Assembly: GCA_030549335.1 (NCBI GenBank)
Contig: CM060192.1
Span: forward strand, 21,084,157 to 21,148,156
DNA length: 64,000 bases
Reading direction: 5' to 3'
Source of the DNA: Pontederia crassipes
Taxonomy: Eukaryota; Streptophyta; Magnoliopsida; Commelinales; Pontederiaceae
The translations under genes and the position numbers were made by a program. Positions 2,128 through 57,086 of this stretch are shown piece by piece; the stretch's first letter is position 1; each line of letters begins with the position of its first letter. The notes under the pieces are model-generated. The model did no database searches. It was not told the origin of the DNA and saw only the letters and a program-made list of their open reading frames with translations.

Positions 2128-2661
2128 TTGATTTCTCCGCTTTGCACTAGCTCTTACTTACCATGCAGACCAAGCAGCGCCTGATGCACGCTGAGTCGTG
2201 AACGATGCACATCGAGCAGTGAGCCATTCGCGATGAGCACCTTCGTCAAGCAATGGAGATTCGTGACATGCGGGTTGATATCCAAGATCTTGCTGAGCGA
2301 CAGTAGCATACAGATACAATGATTAGTACGATGCATGACTACCATACTCACTATGGTCTTTTCCTTCCGCCACCTATGGATTAGAGGGTTGTCTTTTTTC
2401 ACTTTCTTTCTATTTTCCCTTTCTTTCATTTTCAGTTTTTTTCATTTTCTAGTTTCTTTATCATGCTTATATCCCTTTTACGAGTTTGATCTTAAACACT
2501 AGGGACAATGTTAGGCTCAGGCTTGGGGGAGTTGCATATTGCATGCATCATGTCTTTAGGTTCACATTGCACCCTTATTTTCTACGGTTTGTTTTCATTC
2601 CTTTTATGTACCGGAAAAAAGTTTCAAATTTTCCATTTTGCTTGACTCTTTGCCTCTTTTC
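2128..2661 (+). other. 3' non-coding region of K with hairpin and polypurine tract
   Basis: Non-coding. AACACT (2495-2500), loop AGGGAC and AATGTT (2507-2512) form a stem with one mismatch. After about six bases comes GGCTTGGGGGAGTTG (2520-2534), a polypurine tract of the Athila type. The matching arrangement is found in X and R1. No LTR follows, because copia element E1 begins at 2662. Confidence 0.55.
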
Positions 2662-13858: not shown

Positions 13859-15067
13859 ATGTCAAATTTCGCTAGTGAAGACGACGAATTCTTAGATTTT
13901 GAACCAGAAAGTGATCGGAAGTAGAGAATCTGCAGAGCACAGCAAGAGCACTTAAGAAGAAGGGCACGAATAGTCCAGGAGGAGCTAGAAATGGCGAATA
14001 ATCCCGACGCATTACGACCCTTATAGGAATTATGTACACCAAATGCCTTAGGTCTGGCCTCTGGGATTGCCAGGCCGGATATACAAGCTAACAACTTCCA
14101 GCTGAATCCAACATTATCGTCTGTCTTGAGCAATCACGCGTATGCAGGACTACCCAACGAAGATCCGAATCAATAGCTCATCATATTTCTGGAGATTTGC
14201 GACACTTTCAAGTGTAACGATGTCACTACAGATGCTATCAGGCTCCGGCTATTTCCTTTTTCCCTAAGAGACCGAGCTAAAACTTGGATAAGGTCTCTAG
14301 AGCTTGAAATCATTCGAACATGGGATGAGCTCTTATCAGCTTTCCTAACCTATTTCTTTCCCCCGGGAGAATCATAGCCATGAGAAATCATATTACATCA
14401 TTTTACTAGTGGGAGGCGGAGTCAATCTATGAGGCATGGGAAATATTCAAAGATATGCTGAGAAAATGCCCCCATCATGCATTTCAGAAATGGATGGTGG
14501 TCCAGACATTTCACAGTGGCCTTACTCCTCAATGCAAGAGTACTCTGGACTCTGCTGTAGGTGGCACATTCATGAGCAGAAATCAGGAAGACAGATACCA
14601 GTTGATTGAAGAAATCAGTACCAATCATCACAATTGGATGCTGGACAGAACGAATCGTCAACAACCAGATTATGAGAAAACACTGAGAGTGAATAGCTGG
14701 AATGAGCTCTCTTCTAGAATGGAAAGTATTATACAAAAGGCTATGAATTAGAACAAAGCGATGCATTTTAATATCTGCTCAATGAAAATCACGCCCACCA
14801 ACCTGAACCTTAGCCTCACATGGTGCGATAATTGCGGATCGCCAAACCGTATGATGACCAATTGTACATCAATCCCTTACCAAATGCAAGAAGCATTAGG
14901 TGAGCAAGTGAATGCACTTATGCCTTATGGTCAGAACCAACATCAATACCCAGGAGGGCAACAACAACCCCGACAGAGACAATGGAGACCCTTCATCAAA
15001 TCCAATCCACTTCTTTCTTACGGTGGCAACAACTATCAGGGAGCACCTCAACAACCTCGACCACCAC
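13859..15067 (+). pseudogene. H gag, N-terminal half
   Basis: The start ATGTCAAATTTCGC gives MSNFASEDDEFLDFEPESD. The Retrotrans_gag core follows: IRLRLFPFSLRDRAKTWIRSL, ELLSAFLTYFFPP, CPHHAFQKWMVVQTFHSGL and TLDSAVGGTFMSRN. A zinc-knuckle relic, CDNCGSPNRMMTNC (near 14824-14865), has Arg in the His position. Frames shift near 14460 and stops occur near 13920, 14020 and 14750. The gene stops at 15067, where X inserted. Its continuation is on the minus strand at 26956-26209, and the reading frame matches across the ACCAC target duplication. Confidence 0.85.
15063..15067 (+). repeat. Target-site duplication of X, left copy
   Basis: ACCAC directly outside the X 3' LTR. The partner is at 26952-26956, read as ACCAC on the minus strand because that flank was inverted. 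Confidence 0.85.
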
Positions 15068-20260: not shown

Positions 20261-20949
20261 TCTGGACATCCGGATGTCATCGATCGCGACGCCCCCTCCA
20301 AAATATTAGCAAATCGCCTCATCTATAAATAAAACCGTAGAACTAGGAAGAAAGGTGGCGGCGCGGAGAAATGGCCCGAAGGAAGTTAGGTCTCGGCCGT
20401 AACAAAATTGGTGAAACCGTCGGCCGTGAAAAGTATCAGTCGATATCAATGAAGATTTCCTAGCGATACTGAAGAGAGAGGTGAAGTGTGCGGCCGGTAT
20501 AGAATTGTCGATGAAGAGACTCAGCCGAAATTTGGGGTGTGGAGCTTGCGGCCGCAAAGTGTCGATCGATAATCAAGGAGAAGCTTGGCCGCAATGTTGT
20601 CGATGAAGATCTCGGCCGAGATTGGAGTTGTTGCTTTCGATGGTGGAGCTTGCGGCCGGTACGAAGAAGTGTCAAAGAATTTCGGCCGAAGTTCGGTGGC
20701 TTCTCGGCCACAGTCGGTGTCATTGGAGAGATGCTCGGTCGATATGAAGACACGTCGATGAGAGACTCCGGCCGTAACTTGGTGACAGTGAAGAAGAGAT
20801 CTCGGCCGCAATTGAAAGATGACTATCGGCCGTAATCTATTATCGGTGAAGATCTCGACCGAGATTGGAGTTGTTGCAGCTTGCGGCCGGTATGAAGGCT
20901 TTAGTGGATTCTCGGCCGTAGTTAGGAAAGGTACGTCGAACCTCGCTAC
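20261..20949 (-). repeat. CGGCCG-rich degenerate repeat block
   Basis: About twenty CGGCCG-like hexamers recur every 20-50 bases. Longer phrases such as ATCTCGGCCGAGATTGGAG appear twice (20610-20630, 20850-20870). It lies between the partial LTR B and the ORF1-like gene. Open frames on both strands look like by-products of the repeat. It may be leader sequence or derive from an LTR U3 of the same family, whose motif it shares. Confidence 0.55.
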
Positions 20950-21956
20950 GAATTATAAAAATTGGAAGAATTACACCAAAATAATAGAAAGTCGAAGCTT
21001 CGGATCACGGGCAGACAGTCGGGCAGTCTCTCGAACTTGATAAGAGTCGCGATCAACTTCCAGCTATCGCACCTCTCTTCTTTCGGTCGAAGCCTGCAGA
21101 GCTCATGACTCAACTGTGGAAGAAGCCTGAACTTTAGAGCACCAATAGGGACGACGACTTCTTCACGTATTTATAGGTGCGAACAGACTTCAAGTTGATC
21201 CCGGCCGTAATATCGTACGGCCAACTTTAAATTCGCGAGTTAAACTTTAAAACTTTGGTTAATGATAAAAGGTTATCTGTTTTGCACCTCTTCATTCCCG
21301 GCCACAAAATGATAAACTTCTCTTCGTTCTCAGCCAAAACATAGGTCATTACGCCCAAAAAGATAAACTCTTTTTCTTCCTTCTTGAGTTATCGGCCAAA
21401 ACGATGACTTGACCCAAGGATTTGAGTTATCGGCCGATAAACTTGATATTCTTCTCTGAATTTCGGCCACAAAAGTCATTTGCACCCTACGATTAGTTGA
21501 TGATTACGATCGATAGTCTCCTATCCTTGGTTAATGATAAACTCTTATACCCAAAGATATCGGCCGGTAAGGATAAACTCTTGGATTGCGACTGATAAAA
21601 TTGATTCATATGGTGTTTCGCCCAACTTGATGTTCTCGGCCGATAAACTTGGTTAAGGATAGATCTTTGGTGTCAGAGTTCTCGACCGATAATATCTTTG
21701 TATTCGAATTGTGGCTGATACGTTAATAATTCATTTAATATAATCCTTCAGATAATTGTGTATTCGACCTTTCCTGCAAAATAATTATCAAATTTTAATC
21801 AATCCATCCACAATTAAAATATTCAAAGAATTAACAGTAAAATCATAAATCCAGAATTATGACAAAAAGTGACTAAAAATTATGCATGTCATGATCAAAT
21901 TACAGAAAAATTAATTAAAATAATAAACTAAAATATGTTATATTTTATATGCATCA
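20950..21956 (-). repeat. Partial X-type LTR (copy B)
   Basis: It matches copy A from 15878 to 16881 and includes U3, the CGGCCG/GATAA motif array and a TATA box (CTATAAATAC, minus strand, 21176-21167). The R/U5 side is missing. It is followed on the right by 286 bases equal to the pre-LTR internal end, with a decayed polypurine tract (AACTCTCTCAAGCTT, plus strand, 21957-21971). Confidence 0.8.
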
Positions 21957-22242
21957 AACTCTCTCAAGCTTAAAGTCTTGCTTGTCCTCAAGTAAAAATT
22001 CAAAGCACAACTCAAGAAAGTTTCATCATAGCCTCCACATTGTCAATTGACTAATTTTCTCACACAATTCTTCTGTACACTTACTACTCAATATCTCACC
22101 ATTTTTCATGCACTTAGCTTCATAAAGGTTCTGAATGTTTCACAAATTTAAATAATCTCAAATTTAGCCTTGAAGAAAAATAAATTATCTGTCAAATAAT
22201 AGCATTAATATTGAACACACAAGTACTAATTGATCAAAAACT
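21957..22242 (-). other. Remnant of X internal region
   Basis: It equals 16882-17155. At its right edge, the minus strand reads AGTTTTTG directly after LTR C. That is the usual lead-in to a tRNA-Asp PBS, but the PBS and all of gag-pol are deleted. Confidence 0.65.
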
Positions 22243-23154
22243 TGATGCGTAAAATGATGTAGCAAAATAAAATCACTAATAACTGCACTAGTCGCTCAAG
22301 TAATATAATAAATAAGAGTAAGAGTGTCGAACCCACGAGGAATATTATTAATAAAATATCTGAATTTATAAATTAATAAGAGAGAAGAAAAACATGGATT
22401 TTGGAAATAGGTTTTGTAAAAATAAAGAAAATAAGATAAAGATAAGATAATGGTGTTGACGTTAGACCTTAGGATGAAAATAGATCAGGATAAATATTTG
22501 AATCATAAAAAATAAATTTAATCTTTAATGATTGATTAGAGTCCCCTTAAATTATTAACTTGACATGATTAAATTAAACTATCTTAATTTAATAAGAATT
22601 GAAGTCTCCACAAACTGGCATCCCATCAAATCAAGATACATTAAATTGAATTCCCTAGACTATTAGTCACTCCACAAATTGGTATAAATTAATAGACCAC
22701 ACAAATTTGATTCTCCACACACTAGTTATCAAAATTATATCAATTATTAATTTCAATAAAAATTAATTAAAATTAGTATCATAAATTCTGAAATTAAACA
22801 CTCCACAAACTGGTATAGCCTAATTTAGAAATTCAATTAACTAATATAAAAGCATTAAACACAATCAATAATTGATCAGAAAAGATTAAAACAAATAAAA
22901 TAGGGTCCAAACATTTTTCTTCAATTAATAATCTCCTAAAATAAAATATATAAAAATATGGAGTTCATCCTAAAGAAATTGGAGAGATAATAAAATACAA
23001 ATTATAAAAATTGGAAGAATTACACCCAAATAATAAAAAGTTGAAGCTTCGGATCACGAATAGACAGTCGGGCAGTCTCTCGGACTTGATCAGAGTCGCG
23101 ATCAACTTCTAGCTATCGCACCTCTCTCCTTTCGATCAAAGCTTGCAGAGCTCA
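22243..23154 (-). repeat. X 5' LTR, left half (copy C), cut by inversion
   Basis: It matches copy A from 15068 to about 16037 (phrase GCAGAGCTCACGA) and then stops abruptly at copia gag sequence. The missing half of this LTR, starting four or five bases further on in copy A, is at 26957-27833 in reverse. Confidence 0.85.
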
Positions 23155-24166
23155 CGATATTTTGAATGGCTTAACCTCCTTGGGGGAGCCAAGATCTAAC
23201 CCCCAAAAGTGAAAAAGATTCTCAGGTCTCTCTCCTCCAAATGACATACGAAAGGACCGTGATCGAAGAAAAGGATTTGAATAAATTGGATTTTGATGAT
23301 CTTATTGGCTCACTTTTAACCTATGAGATCTCAATCCAAGGAGATCAAGAAGAAAAAGCGCCAAGAAGAAAACATTGACATTTAAGGCAAATACAATAGA
23401 AGAAAATTCAAGTGATGAGGAAGTGGATAAAAAGAAACTCGCACTATACTCAAGAAAATTAGATAAGTATTTCAAGTTGGTTAAAAAGAAAGACAAGAAC
23501 AAGAAGCCAACAAGAAAATCATACAAACATCACAAAGAAGAAAAATCTCGGAAAAGTAAAAATAAAAAATATGAAGAGTCTAGTGAAACAAGTAGTTCAT
23601 CAAGCTCTTCTAGTGATGAAGCATACATATGCTTGATGACACACGACGATGAAGTAATCTCTAACCCCTTAAACTCAAATTATAACTCATCAAACTCTTC
23701 CGAAGAAATAGATGTGAACAAAGAACTCTCCTCTCTTATAAAAAGATATTTTTCAATTAAAGAGGAAAATAAAACATTAATTCATGAAATTGAAAAATTA
23801 AAAGAGGAAAATAATGCATATTTTTTGGAAAATGAAAAACTAAAAAATGAAATTAAAACTTTAGAAATCACGCATGCATGCGAAGTTGTAAAACTAGCAT
23901 GTTCTTTGGAATAAGTAAAGAAAGAAAATGTCTATTTGAAAGATATACAAAATAAGATTATATCTTATGTAAAGAAAAATAATCTTAGGAATCATCCCTA
24001 CGATAGAAATTCACATTTTAAATGTTTTACATGTAGATTTTATGGGCATTATGCATATCAATGCAAAATGAGTAAATCAACACAATATGGCATGATTTGG
24101 GTTCCGAAAGGAATATTGTCTAACAAATTAGGACCCAAAGAAATTTGGGTACCAAAGATTACATAA
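23155..24166 (+). pseudogene. E2 gag, C-terminal part with zinc knuckle
   Basis: It begins mid-gene at ILNGLTSLGEPRSNPQ. After frameshifts it opens as a 179-codon stretch (23375-23911) with a Lys-rich linker, a Ser-rich run, and a coiled-coil-like section (KRYFSIKEENKTLIHEIEKL). A TAA ends that stretch. The zinc knuckle CFTCRFYGHYAYQC (CX2CX4HX4C) lies near 24025-24066, followed by GMIWVPKGILSNKLGPKEIW and a stop at 24166. The N-terminal half is on the minus strand at 28264-27834. No protease or pol follows. Confidence 0.82.
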
Positions 24167-47857: not shown

Positions 47858-47862
47858 TTCTC
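47858..47862 (+). repeat. Target-site duplication of R1, left copy
   Basis: TTCTC, repeated at 57082-57086 outside the other LTR. Confidence 0.92.
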
Positions 47863-50682
47863 TGATCACTTGCTGATCACTATATGTTTCTAACCCATTT
47901 TAGATGCAATTCATGCATGTCGAGTCCCACTTTTGCCTATTTTTGGGCCAATTATACTTGGAATGCAAACATTATGATAACTAGTAGATATTCCACATTT
48001 CATACTTAATTCCATGTGCATAGAGGTTCTGAAATGTCAAAATCCATTAATATTTAAATTCTATGCCAAGTTATCATTTTGAGGACAAGTTATCATTCCT
48101 ATATGTCAAGTTATCATTATTTTGAGTGAACTGATTTTCAATGATTTTCTTGCTCTAAATCCATCATTATCATGTATAAATCATATTTGGATAGTCACAT
48201 CTCAACTTGTGCAAAGTTTTAAATCCATTTGAACAAGTTATCATTTTTCCTTTGCCAAGTAATCATTAAAGGGCAATTCTGTCATTTCGACATCCAAAAC
48301 CATTAATTCTGCACAAGGACCTTAGGCATTCATTATATTATTGTCCTAACTCATTGCTGTTCAAATTTGATCACATTTGGATAATCACAACAAAAGTTAT
48401 GACAAGTTATCGTTTTTAAGGCAATTTAGTTATCGTTTTGGCACCCAAGTTATCATTCCTATGAAATCTTATCCATAGTTGATTTCTGACTTCACTCACT
48501 TATCATCCTAATCCATTTGATGTCTTCAATGCTTTGAACTACTCATATTTGAACATTTTCCATGAAATATGAAAAGTTATCATTCCGGGTCCCTAAAACT
48601 ATTATTTTCGATATGGGTTTTCATTCCTGCACGACACCTAATCCCATTTGATGTTTGAGCTGACAACTATCATTATCCTAATCTTTATTTGTTAAAATCA
48701 CATTTAAAGATCTTGATGCTTGCTGTTTTGGGTTTTGTAGCAGGAAAAACAAGTGCAAAAAGGTGGAAAAAGTAGGAGGGGACCACTTGCTTTTGCTGTC
48801 CAAAAGCTATTGCAGCAGCTAGAATTCTTGGACCATTGGACAGGTGGCTCACATCAGGGGGTATGGAACAATTTGATGCTGATCTAAGGGTGGAAGGAAG
48901 ACATATATAAGCTGAAGAAACCCTGGAATCCAGGGGGAGCCTCCATTTGGAGGGCTGCTGGACCAGGAGCAAGGTGGAGGAAGGCTTGCTGATTTCTGCA
49001 TAACAGTCCTGATTCCAGGATGGATAGCTTCTTCTCTTCATTCCATTTTTTATCTAAGTTTGTAACTATAAGGAGATAAACTCCATGCCTCCTAGGATAG
49101 GATAGTAGTCTAATATATATTGTGGATGGATTAGGGATAAGTTTAAGTTTCCTGCACTGATTTCTGAATTCTGAATTTCTGGTTTTACATTTCTGAAATC
49201 TGAAGTGTTATAAATCTGATCTTGTCATTTGAAGACCCTATTTGTATTTATAACTGAGAAGTTATCATTTGGTCTAACCCTTGTTCAGAAATGAATCAAG
49301 AATCAATGCCAAGTTCTAGATACAAACCCAATTAGAATTCTGTGGTTTTTCTGAAATCTGAATTCTGAATGCCTTCCTGATTTCTGAATTCTTAGAATCT
49401 GTTTTGTCATTGTGGAGCCACAATTGTTTTGACAACTGAGAGGTTATCTTATGGTTCCATTCTAGTTCAGAAATGATCAAGATGCAATGACATTCCTAAG
49501 GTTCTAATTTGTAATTGTTGCTGATTTTCTGTTTCCTGATTTTTGAACAATCTGATTTCTGATTTTTCTGGGCTGTTTGAATCTGATTGTCATTGGGGAT
49601 TGAATTAATTGAACAACTGAGAGGTTAACATCTATCCCAATCTTGTTCAGAAATGAATTGAGAAGCTTTGACATTCCTATGATTCAAATCTGATTTGGTT
49701 TTTCCTGATTTGAATGAGTTGAATGAGTTGCTGATTTCTGATTTCCTGAAATTCCTGAAATCTGATTGCCATTGTTAAGCCCTACTTTAATCCACCATTG
49801 AGAGATGGTTTTAAGGCCTTCCTTGAGATTCAGAGATGAGCCAAGGAGCAATGACAATTTCTGATTTCCCAAACTTGTATTAGGTGCTGATTTCTATCCA
49901 ATTCATTAATGAAAATGTGGATTTCATTTGAATTTGCAGCTGAGAAGCTGATTTTAAATCCTCTTGTAGTTTAGAGATAAACCAAAGAGCATTTGCATTA
50001 ATATTGGATTGATTTCATCCATGTTTATCTGATTGAAGCATTCCCTTCATTTTCAAAGTGCAATTTTGAAGTTATCATTTCAGGTTTTATTGAATTGCCA
50101 AAAACATCAGCAAAGTGACTTGGATTGAACATAGTGATAACTTGATTTTCAGTGGGGATCCTCTTCTAATTCAACTTGGCTAACAATTATATGATAATAT
50201 ATTGTTTAGTTCTGGTCTAATTGAGCTGTGAAAACAACCATATTGAAAGTTGAATTGGATTTGACTAGAAAATGATAACTTGTTCCATTTTCATCCATAA
50301 TTAAATTAGATGAACCCCAATTCCTAGGAGGACCTTCCTCATTGATAGATAAATCCTTTTAGACTCTAGATTAGCATTTATAACTCAGTTTTGATAAGTT
50401 TACAAAATACAAAAATCAGTTATCGTTTCACTTTCCATTAAAAATCTATTTTTCCTTTTCTTTAAAAATCTGTTTTTGCCACTTTAAATAGGATTAGTCT
50501 AAATTATTTTTAGTTAGTCTAGGACTTCAAATCACTGTGGATACGATATTTAGGATTACTACAATTGACATGTATACTTACAGTAGAGAGTGAATTAGGG
50601 AGTTGAACCAAAAATTGAAAAAATTTCAAGTTTGACCCAAAAATCAGCAAGTTATCACTCAACCTCCCAAATATTACTATCA
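47863..50682 (+). repeat. R1 5' LTR
   Basis: It runs from TGATCACTTG to TACTATCA. U3 contains many AAGTTATCATT-like words. The TATA box TATATAA lies at 48904-48910. Downstream, 49283-50000 is a five-unit degenerate tandem array of about 180 bases per unit. It has 312 bases (48764-49075) that the 3' LTR lacks. Confidence 0.93.
48904..48910 (+). promoter_or_regulatory. R1 TATA box
   Basis: TATATAA within ACATATATAAGCTGAAG. It is the likely core promoter of R1 and is present only in the 5' LTR. Confidence 0.6.
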
Positions 50683-50688
50683 AGTTTT

Positions 50689-50706
50689 TGACGCCGTTGC
50701 CGGGGA
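50689..50706 (+). other. R1 primer binding site (tRNA-Asp)
   Basis: TGACGCCGTTGCCGGGGA matches the complement of plant tRNA-Asp with one change, six bases after the LTR. Confidence 0.9.
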
Positions 50707-50974
50707 TTTGAGGTCAATTAGGCTAACTTAGATAGTTTAGATTAGTTTTAAATTAGTTTTAAATTTATTTGTTAGGTTAATTTTCAGTTTTTGCAAGTTA
50801 TCATTCTTAATTTTTCACTTTTGTCTAGTTTTCATTTGTTTCTTGAATTTGATACTGCTGAATCTCTTTATGCAGGACTTGGATCATCAAGAGGACTGAC
50901 TGTATTTGTCAGAACCTGAACCAGAGAGAAGGTTTAACTGAAGGAAAAGAATCCAAAGAGAAGAGGCTAGAAGG

Positions 50975-53046
50975 ATGATTTTTGAAGAGGAGGCACACAA
51001 TCCTGTTTTTGAAGAAGCTGTGAATCAAAATATGGCAGCTCCTAGGACTCTTTGGGAGTGCTACTCACCAAGTAATGTCAGAAATCAGCAAGGAAATGGA
51101 GTACTAGCACCTGCTGCCAACTTTGAAGTCAATCCAGCCTTGATTTCTATGATAAGGCAATATCAGTTTGCTGGATTGGAGAATGAGGATCCAATTTCAC
51201 ACCTTGACAACTTCAAGGAGAATTGCAGCATTGTCAACTTCAATAATACACCTATGGATGTTGTCTACATGAGGCTATTCCCCTTCTCACTCAAGGACAA
51301 AGCAAAGATATGGTACAAGACCCTCAAACCTGAAGAGATGGCTACTTGGAATCCATAATTCAATTGTTCCTAGCTGAATTTTTCCCACCTAGCAAAACTG
51401 ACAATTTCAGAGATCAGATTGTGAGATTCTACCAATTGGATCAAGAGAATATATGTAATGCGTGGCAAAGACTCCAAGGCTTGCTGAGGGCATGCCCACA
51501 TCATGGGTTTGAAAAATGGCAACTTGTCAACTATTTCCACAAAGGATTGAACTACCCCAGCAAGGTTACATTGGATACTGCTGCAGGAGGCATCTTTGCA
51601 TCTAAAAACATTGATGAAGCTTATCAACTCATTGAAAACATAGTCAAGAATCACCACTTCCTTACCCATGACAGAACCAGGAGGCCACCCATGGACAATT
51701 CAGTGAATCAATTGTCAACTCAACTTGAAGAGGTGCTGTACAAGACTTTGGAGAGGTTGAACTTGACTCCCAATGGAAATAAGGCTTCCAATCCTGAAAC
51801 AAGGTGTTGTGTATGTGGCAATCAAGGCCATGTGTCAGAGGATTGCAATTTAATTATGCAGCAAGTGGAGCAAAATGTTGATCAAATCAATGTTGTGGGC
51901 AACTATGAGATCAAACCTCTTGCTGAATTTTACACTCCAGAAAATAGGAATCATCCCTACTTCTCTTACAAGACCAATCAATATCAAGGGGCCCCTATGC
52001 AGAATTCAAATTGGCAGCCTAAAATCCTGCCAAGGAATCAGCCACCACTCTATGGAAATCAGGGCCAAAATGACCCAATTCAGAGGAATCTATATGAGCC
52101 ACCATCTCAAGTCCAAGCACCTCAATTCCAAACTGAAATGAAGGAAATGCTCCAACGGATTCTGAAGAAGCATGACAGCCAAGGAGAGGAGATATTGAAA
52201 ATCAATTCTAGATTGGATGCCATGAATGCAAATCAGAAATTGTTGGAAAGCCAAATTGCTCAACAGGCTAGTACATCATCTAAACCTCCTATGTTCTTCC
52301 CTGGACAGCCAGAAGTGAATCCAAAGGAGCAAGCAAAGGCCATCCAGCTCAGGAGTGGAAGAATGGTGGAGGAACCAACGAAGAAAGCTGAGGATAATCA
52401 AGTCAATTCAGATTCAAAAGTTGCTGAAGAGCCAAATGAAGATCCTGTGTTGGAAAATCAGAATCAACATCCTCAATGTGAAGCCAAGACTAGAATTTTT
52501 GATAGAGTATCATTCCCACAAAGATTGGTCAAGGCCCAATCGTCACAAGTTATTAGTAGGCCAAATTTTCAGAAAAATGATTTTGAAAAGGGACAGCTGG
52601 ATCAGATTGTACAACAAGTTTCTCCTATAATTCTCATTGAAGATCCATTGCAAAGGTGCCTAATGTTTGATCATTTGAAGGAATTAGAGGATCCAGAAGT
52701 CAAAGCATATAAATCAGCTATGAATGCACTCCAATCAGTAGGGAATTTAGAATTCCAAAATGGGGTGTTGGAGGTTTTCACTGTTGAACCCCACACCAAT
52801 TCAACTCAAGACATTTCCTCTCAATTGGAGCTGAAACTTCTTCCTAATCCAGGGGATTCATATATCATACATGAGGATTCTAGAGATGAGAAGCTAGTAG
52901 ATTTCTGGCACAATGAAGGAGGGGTACATCCAAGTGAAAAACAAAGGCCAATCATTGACAAACTAAGAGATCCATACTTGATTAGTGAAGCTGTCCACAT
53001 ATTGAGATCTCTACTTGATCACATCATAATATTTAAACCTCCTTGA
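50975..53046 (+). CDS. R1 gag (one frameshift)
   Basis: The first open part, 50975-51358, has MIFEEEAHNPVFEEAVNQNM, FAGLENEDPISHLDNFKENC and VVYMRLFPFSLKDKAKIWYK. A one- or two-base slip near 51350 moves into the 566-codon frame 51346-53046: FLAEFFPPSKTDNFRDQIVR, CPHHGFEKWQLVNYFHKGLN, TLDTAAGGIFASKNIDEAYQ. The zinc knuckle CVCGNQGHVSEDC with the preceding Cys makes CX2CX4HX4C. Then come AQQAS-type QIAQQASTSSKPPMFFPGQP, IQLRSGRMVEEP and VSFPQRLVKAQ. It is a full-length Athila/Tat-type gag with a unique 150-residue tail ending LLDHIIIFKPP. It would build the capsid and package RNA. Confidence 0.85.
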
Positions 53047-54553
53047 CATGAAGAAGTTGTAACAATGTCTAGCCTAAGACATTAAAGAAAGGCACTTCTT
53101 GGGAGGTAACCCAAGCCTTTTTATACTTAACCTTTCTGTTTTGCAGGAATAAAGAAGGGAGGAATCAGATCCATCCACAAATTAACTAGAATGGAGTATC
53201 CCTACCCTTAATTTTAATTCTTCTCACTGAAATCCTATTGATAACTGATATTATCTTTTCATTCATGCTGAAATCATCATGTTAATATCTGAATCATCAT
53301 GCATATCAGTTGTCCCAATCTATCTTAGCTGAATTTCGATGCCACTTTAGTGAATCTCATTGCATTGTTGCATTGTGCACCCTAAATTCTAACATTGCAG
53401 ATTTCATTGATATCTCTTGTTTCACTTCAAGAATTATTGCAAATCATGAAGTATGGAACACCTGAAGAGTAGGATTGAAATGCAAGACCCATTGGAAGGG
53501 ACCAAATGCAAATTCCATATATTTCATACCCTCTCCCTTGTCTTTATTTTCAACACTAGGGACAGTGTTGCGAATAAGCTTGGGGGAGGAAACCTGGTGC
53601 TTTTCTAATCTTTACACCATGTTTTCAATTGATTTTAATGTTCATATCATAATTCATACCAGGTTATCATTGGTTTTCGCAAGTTATCACTAGTTATCAC
53701 TCGGTTATCATTTTTTGGACCCAACTCAATTCTGAATTCATTTTAACTCTGAAATAGGTAGAATACTTCATTTTGACAGTGGGTGCACTCCAATACCAAG
53801 TGGCCAACTTGGTCATTAGCCTTCTTGCTTCAATTGACATTATAAATTCAGATGCATTTGAATGAACTTTCAGCTAAAATTTTTCTTTTTTGTGGATTAA
53901 CACTAGCTACATTCATGGATTAATTGGAAAGTAGAAGATGTCTAGAAAGGGGTCAAGGATCTTGCTGCCATGTTAAATAGGAATTCTTGACTATTTGCAT
54001 TTAAGGATCTAACATATACTTGAGTTTGAACCATTGCTCATTTCATGAACAGAATGAAAAAGAAAGAAAAAAAAGGAAAATGAAAAGTTGCATTTTGCAT
54101 TGCATGCATACATGAATAAAGAGAGTGAAAATTCCAAAAAGGAACCTCTTCTGAATAAAGCCAGGATTTTTATCCTGTGACCAGCATGAATAAAAATCAG
54201 GTGCTAAACCTGTTTATTGCATACTCATGAATAAAAGTCAGGTTTTCAAACATGTTTAAGCAAAGAATTAAAATTCTGTTCATGAAGAGATTGGTGTTTC
54301 AAACTTTTTAGTAAAGTTGACAATCCTTGCAATCCAAATTAGTTAATGTTTGTACTTTTATCATGGCTTAAATTTGCATTAACCTTTGTGACTCCTCAGT
54401 TAGAATTTGGGATTGGAAAGAATGGGATGGAATGTTAGCTAAGTGGCAAATCATTTAAGACTTATTTAGCTGATTCTTCTATTCATTTGTGGATGATAAA
54501 TTCAAATTCATCCTTAGTTTCTGAATGTTTTGCTTGAGGACAAGCAAAAGGCT
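53047..54553 (+). other. R1 3' non-coding region
   Basis: There is no coding sequence. A perfect hairpin (CAACACT, loop AGGGAC, AGTGTTG, 53551-53570) precedes AAGCTTGGGGGAGGA (53576-53590). TTATCA words cluster at 53662-53715. A second hairpin, TTTTGCTTG with CAAGCAAAA and loop AGGA, occupies 54528-54549, just before the polypurine tract. Confidence 0.75.
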
Positions 54554-54568
54554 AAGCTTGGGGGAGTT
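54554..54568 (+). other. R1 polypurine tract
   Basis: AAGCTTGGGGGAGTT touches the 3' LTR. It is the probable plus-strand primer. Confidence 0.85.
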
Positions 54569-57081
54569 TGATCACTTGCTGATCACTATATGTTTCTAAC
54601 CCATTTTAGATGCAATTCATGCATATCGAGTCCCACTTTTGCCTATTTTTGGGCCAATTATACTTGGAATGCAAACATTATGATAACTAGTAGATATTCC
54701 ACATTTCATACTTAATTCCATGTGCATAGAGGTTCTGAAATGTCAAAATCCATTAATATTTAAATTCTATGCCAAGTTATCATTTTGAGGACAAGTTATC
54801 ATTCCTATATGTCAAGTTATCATTATTTTGAGTGAACTGATTTTCAATGGTTTTCTTGCTCTAAATCCATCATTATCATGTATAAATCATATTTGGATAG
54901 TCACATCTCAACTTGTGCAAAGTTTTAAATCCATTTGAACAAGTTATCATTTTTCCTTTGCCAAGTAATCATTAAAGGGCAATTCTGTCATTTCGACATC
55001 CAAAACCATTAATTCTGCACAAGGACCTTAGGCATTCATTATATTATTGTCCTAACTCATTGCTGTTCAAATTTGATCACATTTGGATAATCACAACAAA
55101 AGTTATGACAAGTTATCGTTTTTAAGGCAATTTAGTTATCGTTTTGGCACCCAAGTTATCATTCCTATGAAATCTTATCCATAGTTGATTTCTGACTTCA
55201 CTCACTTATCATCCTAATCCATTTGATGTCTTCAATGCTTTGAACTACTCATATTTGAACATTTTTCATGAAATATGAAAAGTTATCATTCCGGGTCCCT
55301 AAAACTATTATTTTCGATATGGGTTTTCATTCCTGCACGACACCTAATCCCATTTGATGTTTGAGCTGACAACTATCATTATCCTAATCTTTATTTGTTA
55401 AAATCACATTTAAAGATCTTGATGCTTGCTGGTTTGGGTTTTGTAGCAGGAAAAACAAGTGCAAAAAGGATAAACTCCATGCCTCCTAGGATAGGATAGT
55501 AGTCTAATATATATTGTGGATGGATTAGGGATAAGTTTAAGTTTCCTGCACTGATTTCTGAATTCTGAATTTCTGGTTTTACATTTCTGAAATCTGAAGT
55601 GTTATAAATCTGATCTTGTCATTTGAAGACCCTATTTGTATTTATAACTGAGAAGTTATCATTTGGTCTAACCCTTGTTCAGAAATGAATCAAGAATCAA
55701 TGCCAAGTTCTAGATACAAACCCAATTAGAATTCTGATTTCTACTTTCTGAAATCTGGTTTTTCTGAATTCTGAATTATGAATGCCTTCCTGATTTCTGA
55801 ATTCTTAGAATCTGTTTTGTCATTGTGGAGCCACAATTGTTTTGACAACTGAGAGGTTATCTTATGGTTCCATTCTAGTTCAGAAATGATCAATATGCAA
55901 TGACATTCCTAAGGTTCTAATTTGTAATTGTTGCTGATTTTCTGTTTCCTGATTTTTTAACAATCTGATTTCTGATTTTTCTGGGTTGTTTGAATCTGAT
56001 TGTCATTGGGGATTGAATTAATTGAACAACTGAGAGGTTAACATCTATCCCAATCTTGTTCAGAAATGAATTGAGAAGCTTTGACATTCCTATGATTCAA
56101 ACTTGATTTGGTTTTTCCTGATTTGAATGAGTTGCTGATTTCTGGTTTCCTGAAATTCCTGAAATCTGATTGCCATTGTTAAGCCCTACTTTAATCCACC
56201 ATTGAGAGATGGTTTTAAGGCATTCCTTGAGATTCAGAGATGAGCCAAGGAGCAATGACAATTTCTGATTTCCCAAACTTGTATTAGGTGCTGATTTCTA
56301 TCCAATTCATTAATGGAAATGTGGATTTCATTTGAATTTGCAGTTGAGAAGCTGATTTTAAATCCTCTTGTAGTTTAGAGATAGACCAAAGAGCATTTGC
56401 ATTAATATTGGATTGATTTCATCCATGTTTATCTGATTGAAGCATTCCCTTCATTTTCAAAGTGCAATTTAGAAGTTATCATTTTCAGGTTTTATTGAAT
56501 TGCCAAAAAAATCAGCAAAGTGACTTGGATTGAACATAGTGATAACTTGATTTTCAGTGGGGATCCTCTTCTAATTCAACTTGGCTAACAATTATATGAT
56601 AATATATTATTTAGTTCTGGTCTAATTGAGCTGTGAAAACAACCATATTGAAAGTTGAATTGGATTTGACTAGAAAATGATAACTTGTCCATTTCCATCC
56701 ATAATTAAATTAGATGAACCCCAATTCCTAGGAGGACCTTCCTCATTGATAGATAAACCCTTTTAGACTCTAGATTAGCATTTATAACTCAGTTTTGATA
56801 AGTTTCCAAAATACAAAAATCAGTTATCATTTCACTTTCCATTAAAAATCTATTTTTCCTTTCCTTTAAAAATCTGTTTTTGCCACTTTAAATAGGATTA
56901 GTCTAAATTGTTTTTAGGTAGTCTAGAACTTCAAATCACTGTGGATACGAAGGGTTACTACAATTGACCTGTATACTTGCAGTAGAGAGTGAATTAGGGA
57001 GTTGAACCAAAAATTGAAAAAATCTCAAGTTTGACCCAAAAATCAGCAAGTTATCACTCAACCTCCCAAATATTACTATCA
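54569..57081 (+). repeat. R1 3' LTR, promoter region deleted
   Basis: It is nearly identical to the 5' LTR but joins GCAAAAAGG directly to ATAAACTCC at about 55470. It thereby lacks the 312 bases that hold the TATA box and the probable transcription start. It ends TACTATCA. Confidence 0.93.
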
Positions 57082-57086
57082 TTCTC
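57082..57086 (+). repeat. Target-site duplication of R1, right copy
   Basis: TTCTC, identical to 47858-47862. Confidence 0.92.

Follow-up and report, generated by a model that had tools for sequence, protein, structure and literature searches.

Hairpins at a fixed spacing before polypurine tracts of Athila-like retrotransposons in Pontederia crassipes, and their possible role in plus-strand priming

Introduction

How long terminal repeat (LTR) retrotransposons choose the exact end of their plus-strand primer is only partly understood, and a stretch of the Pontederia crassipes genome raises the question of whether a folded RNA may take part in that choice. The stretch, referred to here as the window, is 64,000 nucleotides long (assembly GCA_030549335.1, contig CM060192.1, positions 21,084,157 to 21,148,156 of the forward strand, numbered below from 1), AT-rich (GC 0.358) and packed with retrotransposon DNA. 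It holds an LTR element, R1, which carries an extra polypurine tract (PPT) upstream of its terminal PPT (53576-53588 plus 54554-54566). An initial annotation had described short hairpins before such tracts and had read them as selected for a fold. We find that the inverted repeat is genuine and site-specific, lying in the PPT neighbourhood of Athila-like elements, and we tentatively favour, at a probability of roughly 0.45, the reading that an RNA hairpin, built around a GGACA core and set at a constant distance upstream of the PPT, helps to make the plus-strand primer as a cis-acting module of these elements. If this is true, such a structured ruler would be open to test, in that moving the stem should move the cut; it would supply a covariance model with which PPTs and the borders of elements could be located in plant genomes; and it would offer a possible reason for the internal PPT kept by env-class elements. 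If sequence alone matters, the module would still be the sole nucleotide-level match that we found between the internal part of R1 and other sequence in the window.

Results

A hairpin module at six polypurine tracts

The module occurs at the following sites, which are either of an upstream type (PPT1) or of an LTR-adjacent type (PPT2).

53551..53570, + strand: R1a hairpin, arms CAACACT and AGTGTTG around loop AGGGAC, 7-bp stem and 6-nt loop, upstream type (PPT1)
53576..53588, + strand: internal PPT of R1 (PPT1), AAGCTTGGGGGAG, 5 nt past the hairpin and 530 bp past the gag stop
54528..54549, + strand: R1b hairpin, arms TTTTGCTTG and CAAGCAAAA around loop AGGA, 9-bp stem, LTR-adjacent (PPT2)
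54554..54566, + strand: terminal PPT of R1 (PPT2), AAGCTTGGGGGAG, followed by TT and then by the 3' LTR at 54569
18594-18579, - strand: Xa hairpin, arms ACACTG and CAGTGT around loop AGGA, 6-bp stem, PPT1-type, with its PPT at 18571-18559
16920-16903, - strand: Xb hairpin, arms TTGCTTG and CAAGCAA around loop AGGA, 7 bp (9 with one G.U pair), PPT2-type
16896-16884, - strand: Xb PPT, with the 3' LTR of element X directly beyond
2495..2512, + strand: K hairpin, 6 pairs including one C.A mismatch, loop AGGGAC, PPT1-type
2519-2531, + strand: K PPT, AGGCTTGGGGGAG
21954..22002, - strand: X2b module, the sixth and decayed, PPT2-type, in a second X-family copy, core at 21989
21971-21959, - strand: X2b tract, AAGCTTGAGAGAG, mutated (GAGAG); stem pair 5 is broken (A.C)

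All six are PPT sites of Athila-like elements and belong to three families (R1, X and K). PPT1 of R1 lies 1 kb upstream of the site that adjoins the 3' LTR; X has the same two-PPT layout on the minus strand, and K has an upstream-type site alone. The conserved centre of the module is the GGACA core, which is unchanged, together with most of the tract, across the six sites. The distance from the core C (the C following GGA) to the start of the PPT is 13 nt in 6/6 sites and the orientation of hairpin to PPT is likewise identical in all of them; despite this constant core spacing, stem length ranges from 6 to 9 bp among the four intact sites. A BLASTN comparison of the R1 internal region with the window matched nothing outside R1 except the PPT modules, over 41-47 bp.

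The five hairpins named in the initial annotation all read as claimed in sequence and position, the single mismatch in K included. The loop had been described as constant and is not, being AGGGAC (6 nt) in R1a and K and AGGA (4 nt) in the other four. A hairpin had also been claimed before each G5 tract, which holds for the AAGCTTGGGGGAG-type sites but not for other G5 runs (e.g. 23180, 24463 and 24693), where no GGACA core was found within the preceding 45 nt.

Three further observations concern the surroundings of these sites. The second X-family copy (20947-23157, - strand) is apparently internally deleted; by self-BLAST it consists, in order, of the tail of an LTR, some 276 bp from the end of the internal region, where the decayed PPT module lies, and a 3' LTR. 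Between its two PPTs, X carries an insert (18540-17997, - strand) that is rich in GGGTCGGG/CCGACCC and has the ends AGGGGTGTTCA..TGAACACCCCT; it looks like a miniature inverted-repeat transposable element. Pyrimidine-rich stretches lie 5' of the upstream-type hairpins (53530-53550; 18680-18600, - strand; 2355-2480) and appear by eye to be weaker before the LTR-adjacent ones.

Pairing at the sites compared with chance

Among the 68 GGACA words on both strands of the window, at least four of stem pairs 3-7 are formed at six, and those six are the six PPT sites. Within the 35 nt that precede the tract, the best stem was compared with shuffles of each site's own 35 nt, giving P = 0.0075 (R1a), 0.00035 (R1b), 0.018 (Xa) and 0.010 (Xb), and P = 0.44 (K) and 0.48 (X2b) at the decayed or mismatched sites. 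When the core was used to set the register, the P values for the run of outer pairs were 1.7e-4 (R1a), 5.5e-5 (R1b), 3.5e-3 (Xa), 8e-4 (Xb), 1.0 (K) and 0.067 (X2b). Because the sites within one type are related, only about two of the six P values in such a set are independent.

As an outside control we took 204 matches to three core-plus-G5 patterns in viral and prokaryote contigs, 129 of them distinct, from 108 and 80 stretches of viral contigs and 7 stretches of genome contigs with bacterial titles; no plant element was noticed among them, the contigs not being classified one by one. Contiguous stems in the control were 1-4 pairs long (4 in 2/129) and none reached 5 or more, and at least four of pairs 3-7 were formed in 1/129. 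The shuffle P values, the confinement to 6/68 GGACA words and this control rule out a chance palindrome. Pairing of the module with the 5' untranslated region of R1 was also considered and rejected, the longest complements measuring 7 and 5 nt where the null mean is about 7.

Folding energies, expressed as z-scores, were -1.83 (R1a), 0.01 (R1b), -1.25 (Xa), -2.23 (Xb), 0.50 (K) and -0.10 (X2b) for RNA, and -1.41, -1.63, -3.53, -2.43, 0.29 and -1.52 at the same sites for DNA, the DNA values being below the RNA ones at 5/6 sites. When the six sites were used to make a model, it scored them, by construction, at 53.8-65.8 bits and gave nothing else above 11.3 bits in the window; Rfam, at gathering score, gave no match at any of the six sites.

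Paired differences between the two site types

The six related rows were placed in a gapless alignment and compared with 500 shuffles. RNAalifold recovered the hairpin unprompted, together with a second, weaker hairpin that encloses the PPT.

54553..54570, + strand: second hairpin, arms AAGCTT/GAGTTT with G.U pairs, loop GGGG

This second hairpin has the PPT GGGG as its loop, and its right arm takes in the bases with which the LTR begins, likewise at the matching places of X; 83.3% of its cells are paired over the six rows.

In the main stem five pairs (columns 8-25, 9-24, 10-23, 11-22 and 12-21) are changed on both sides, and all five separate the upstream type (R1a, Xa, K) from the LTR-adjacent type (R1b, Xb, X2b). 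Arms are nearly identical within each type, with the closing pair lost (A.C) in R1a and K. When arms are swapped between types, 1-3 of 7 pairs remain, compared with 5-7 within a type. Over two helices, 84.3% of cells are paired (71.7% in shuffles; higher than all 500), 13 cells are doubly changed (7.0 in shuffles; 0/500 as high) and the covariation score is 0.400 (0.200 in shuffles; 0/500), all three values being inflated by the kinship of the rows; when partners are slid, pairing drops from 84% to 26-52%. Since different letters pair at this one place in the two types, the contrast between them counts as evidence, and it hints, without amounting to proof, that the fold was selected.

Element R1 and its classification

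R1 comprises the following features, in addition to the hairpins and PPTs given above.

47863-57081, + strand: R1, LTR element with both ends and a perfect 5-bp target-site duplication, TTCTC
47863..50682, + strand: 5' LTR, 2820 bp, from self-BLAST; TTCTC duplication at 47858-47862
50683..50712, + strand: primer-binding site region, AGTTT and then a putative tRNA-Asp-type site
51334..53046, + strand: gag open reading frame, 570 residues stop to stop; Retrotrans_gag, PF03732
54569..57081, + strand: 3' LTR, 2513 bp, from self-BLAST; TTCTC duplication at 57082-57086

The LTRs have ends of the TG..CA type (TGATCA...TATCA), and self-BLAST gives 99.6% and 96.2% identity between the copies in two blocks and places in the 5' LTR a 311-bp insert (48764-49074) that is not in the 3' LTR. 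Each LTR also contains one TTGAGGACAA, the core in a 3-bp version, roughly 216 bp into the LTR (48079-48088 and 54785-54794). The primer-binding site, which may be of the tRNA-Asp type (17/18 matches to the tRNA letters), begins about 5 bp past the LTR, a position that fits expectation for the Athila lineage. The gag product matches PF03732 (E 7.5e-9; 36.1 bits, cut-off 24.1) and has a single CCHC knuckle, CCVCGNQGHVSEDC; of 261 protein relatives, the best 120 come almost entirely from Tanacetum.

In the internal region (3886 bp) gag is the sole open reading frame of at least 150 residues: a pol of the Athila clade, with reverse transcriptase (RT), ribonuclease H (RNase H) and integrase, was not found there, nor was an env-like reading frame of at least 150 residues between the PPTs, within 53047-54568. 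R1 is therefore at best a non-autonomous element and is classed as Athila-like only. The Athila-type context suggested by the initial annotation is a fair one in view of the gag family, the TG..CA LTRs, the 5-bp duplication, the position of the primer-binding site and the two PPTs, but R1 lacks the pol that would place it.

Rfam matches to snoR71 (RF00097) were found at 51403-51509 and 14377-14483, both on the minus strand and both antisense within gag-related sequence, the one in R1 gag and the other in a gag relative at 14353-15054. This plant small nucleolar RNA model may in part be a retrotransposon gag stretch.

Searches beyond the window

Scans of viral contigs, genome contigs and plasmids gave no relative; the related-locus scans of viral contigs with P0012 and with the RT open reading frame of the window gave no relative, and the plasmid scan no match. 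Searches with the PPT region in peptide form gave 1 match among 27 candidates (P0121, E 1.6, on a 548-base contig) and 2 among 32 (P0122, E 0.16, and P0123, E 5.4, on contigs of 87 and 59 Mb), all of them short predicted peptides of other records that span such a module. In these weak matches core and PPT are five residues apart in 3/3, the same spacing as at the window sites, of which five were used for this comparison, X2b being left out. As third codon bases are lost in peptides, such matches cannot test pairing. In P0122 and P0123 the peptide word of the hairpin, CLRT, occurs twice, once ahead of the PPT peptide and again 10-11 residues further upstream, and the hairpin module may be doubled in tandem in these records.

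Discussion

The steps that we infer are a fold in the element RNA, a pause and a cut. RT would copy the genomic RNA from 3' to 5' through the LTR and the PPT, and would slow on reaching the base of the hairpin, at which moment an RNA/DNA hybrid of 17-20 bp would lie between the polymerase site and the PPT/LTR junction. RNase H would thereby be held over the GGGGGAG|TT cut and the primer end be made. The letters of the arms would be free provided that they pair, and the core or loop might also be a contact for nucleocapsid or RT. From stem base to PPT/LTR cut we count 18 (R1a), 17 (R1b), 20 (Xa) and 19 nt (Xb; 17 with the G.U pair). In HIV RT, template RNA is reported to be cut 18 bp behind the polymerase site and pausing can increase polymerase-dependent cleavage (PMC3185654). 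The range of 17-20 nt is close to that spacing.

A selected RNA fold is, on the alignment and its pairing, a plausible reading, and several points weigh against it and against its proposed role in priming. The figure of 18 bp comes from HIV and not from the RT of a plant element, and in HIV the PPT itself is the main determinant of cleavage. In K and X2b, where the stems are cut short, the base of the contiguous stem is 24 and 22 nt from the cut. The distance from stem base to PPT varies (17-20) while that from core to PPT is constant, which favours a role for the core sequence and suits a signal anchored in sequence better than a ruler set by the stem base. A pure pause site, moreover, would have no need of the sequence conservation that the core shows. 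The energies of RNA folding at the six sites do not stand out; with modest RNA z-scores and DNA z-scores that are lower at 5/6 sites, the case rests on placement and pairing and not on RNA stability. The double changes of the main stem form one contrast, not five. Over both helices, pairs with a double change number 6, compared with 5.2 in shuffles (202/500 as high), and pair types 12, compared with 10.9 (178/500 as high). Differences in the core stem within a type are uncompensated breaks (C.A in K, A.C in X2b). Paired changes of the kind that the initial annotation had noted do occur, but the number of compensating changes was overstated there. Its proposal of selection for fold rather than for sequence has in its favour a palindrome confined to PPTs and unlike arms that pair, and against it these breaks and energies.

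An alternative is a primary-sequence signal, in which RT, RNase H or nucleocapsid would read GGACA-N11-AAGCTTGGGGGAG, the arms being inherited from two ancestral sites and the fold having no role. Such a signal would suit the invariance of GGACA and most of the tract at constant spacing, the near-identity of the arms within each type, the breaks in K and X2b that went uncompensated, and a count of doubly changed pairs that does not exceed shuffles. It would not account for two types that bear unlike palindromes exactly and, in the window, only at PPT sites, nor for the small chance of a palindrome arising in each type (register-fixed P), and we regard it as a serious but unlikely alternative. 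Constraint on coding is also unlikely, given that open stretches through the six sites extend over 1-132 residues in three frames with no long frame common to all, and that frame 0 stops at the LTR TGA in R1b, Xb and X2b.

Other explanations would assign the repeat to a different step of the element's life. Inverted repeats are typical of sites bound by dimeric proteins, and a palindrome in double-stranded DNA, to which integrase or some host factor would bind either in the cDNA or after integration, would be in keeping with DNA z-scores below the RNA ones at 5/6 sites (Xa -3.53, Xb -2.43). However, dimer sites keep their letters, whereas here the arms differ by type and the middle is conserved, and the orientation to the PPT is the same in 6/6; we find this improbable. 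Very slightly less improbable is a packaging or nucleocapsid site, where a CCHC knuckle of Gag would bind the G-rich AGGA/AGGGAC loop on its stem: R1 Gag has one such knuckle, and the loop region is conserved while the stem letters are not. This leaves unexplained why the hairpin should be locked at 13 nt from PPTs, twice per element, and packaging sites generally lie towards the 5' end. A 3' splice site, with a pyrimidine-rich tract followed by ACTAG/ACTGAG and serving a downstream env-like mRNA, would apply to the upstream type alone and would draw on the pyrimidine-rich stretches seen by eye before the R1a, Xa and K hairpins, but the LTR-adjacent sites share core and spacing with no gene between them and the LTR, and between the two PPTs of R1 there is no reading frame of at least 150 residues; such a site is very improbable.

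A more general form of the priming hypothesis is that Athila-type elements possess an RNA-structure ruler, in which a hairpin with free letters would stall RT and set RNase H on the PPT/LTR junction, at the terminal and the internal PPT alike, with tandem doubling possible elsewhere. We consider this generalisation doubtful.

Several known systems resemble parts of this arrangement. Athila4 and Calypso, which are Ty3/gypsy elements, have, besides the terminal PPT, a single additional one further upstream of the 3' LTR, as does R1 (Wright and Voytas 2002, as cited in PMC2829016), and in Diaspora and Calypso the primer-binding site begins 5 bp after the LTR, again as in R1 (PMC1142308). They differ in that a hairpin before the PPT is unmentioned in the parts of these sources available to us, and in that R1 is gag-only, without an env-like reading frame. 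A search of the open-access literature, whose scope did not extend to the original Athila4/Calypso paper, found no description of a hairpin before an Athila PPT and, within the text so accessible, no study of plus-strand primer-end choice in the plant Athila lineage. For Ty3, also of the Ty3/gypsy group, the PPT is described as lying in a paired region of the RNA, but it is a different PPT and a comparable upstream hairpin is not reported in the accessible part of that work (PMC11381356). In Ty1 and retroviruses, a U-box or T-box upstream of the PPT matters for plus-strand priming (PMC10085805). It too is a cis signal 5' of the PPT, but one that consists of a T-rich run right beside the tract, whereas here the neighbouring bases are mixed and the signal would be a paired motif.

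A further parallel is offered by the Sireviruses, where, as here, an inverted repeat is conserved in association with the PPT; it has been proposed to form a stem-loop that aids RNase H in making the primer (Bousios et al. 2010, PMC2829016). There the arms flank the terminal PPT, with the right arm within the LTR. In contrast, both arms of the main hairpin described here, of 6-9 bp, are 5' of the PPT, and the hairpin occurs at the upstream as well as the terminal PPT. Only the weak second hairpin encloses the PPT and reaches the start of the LTR.
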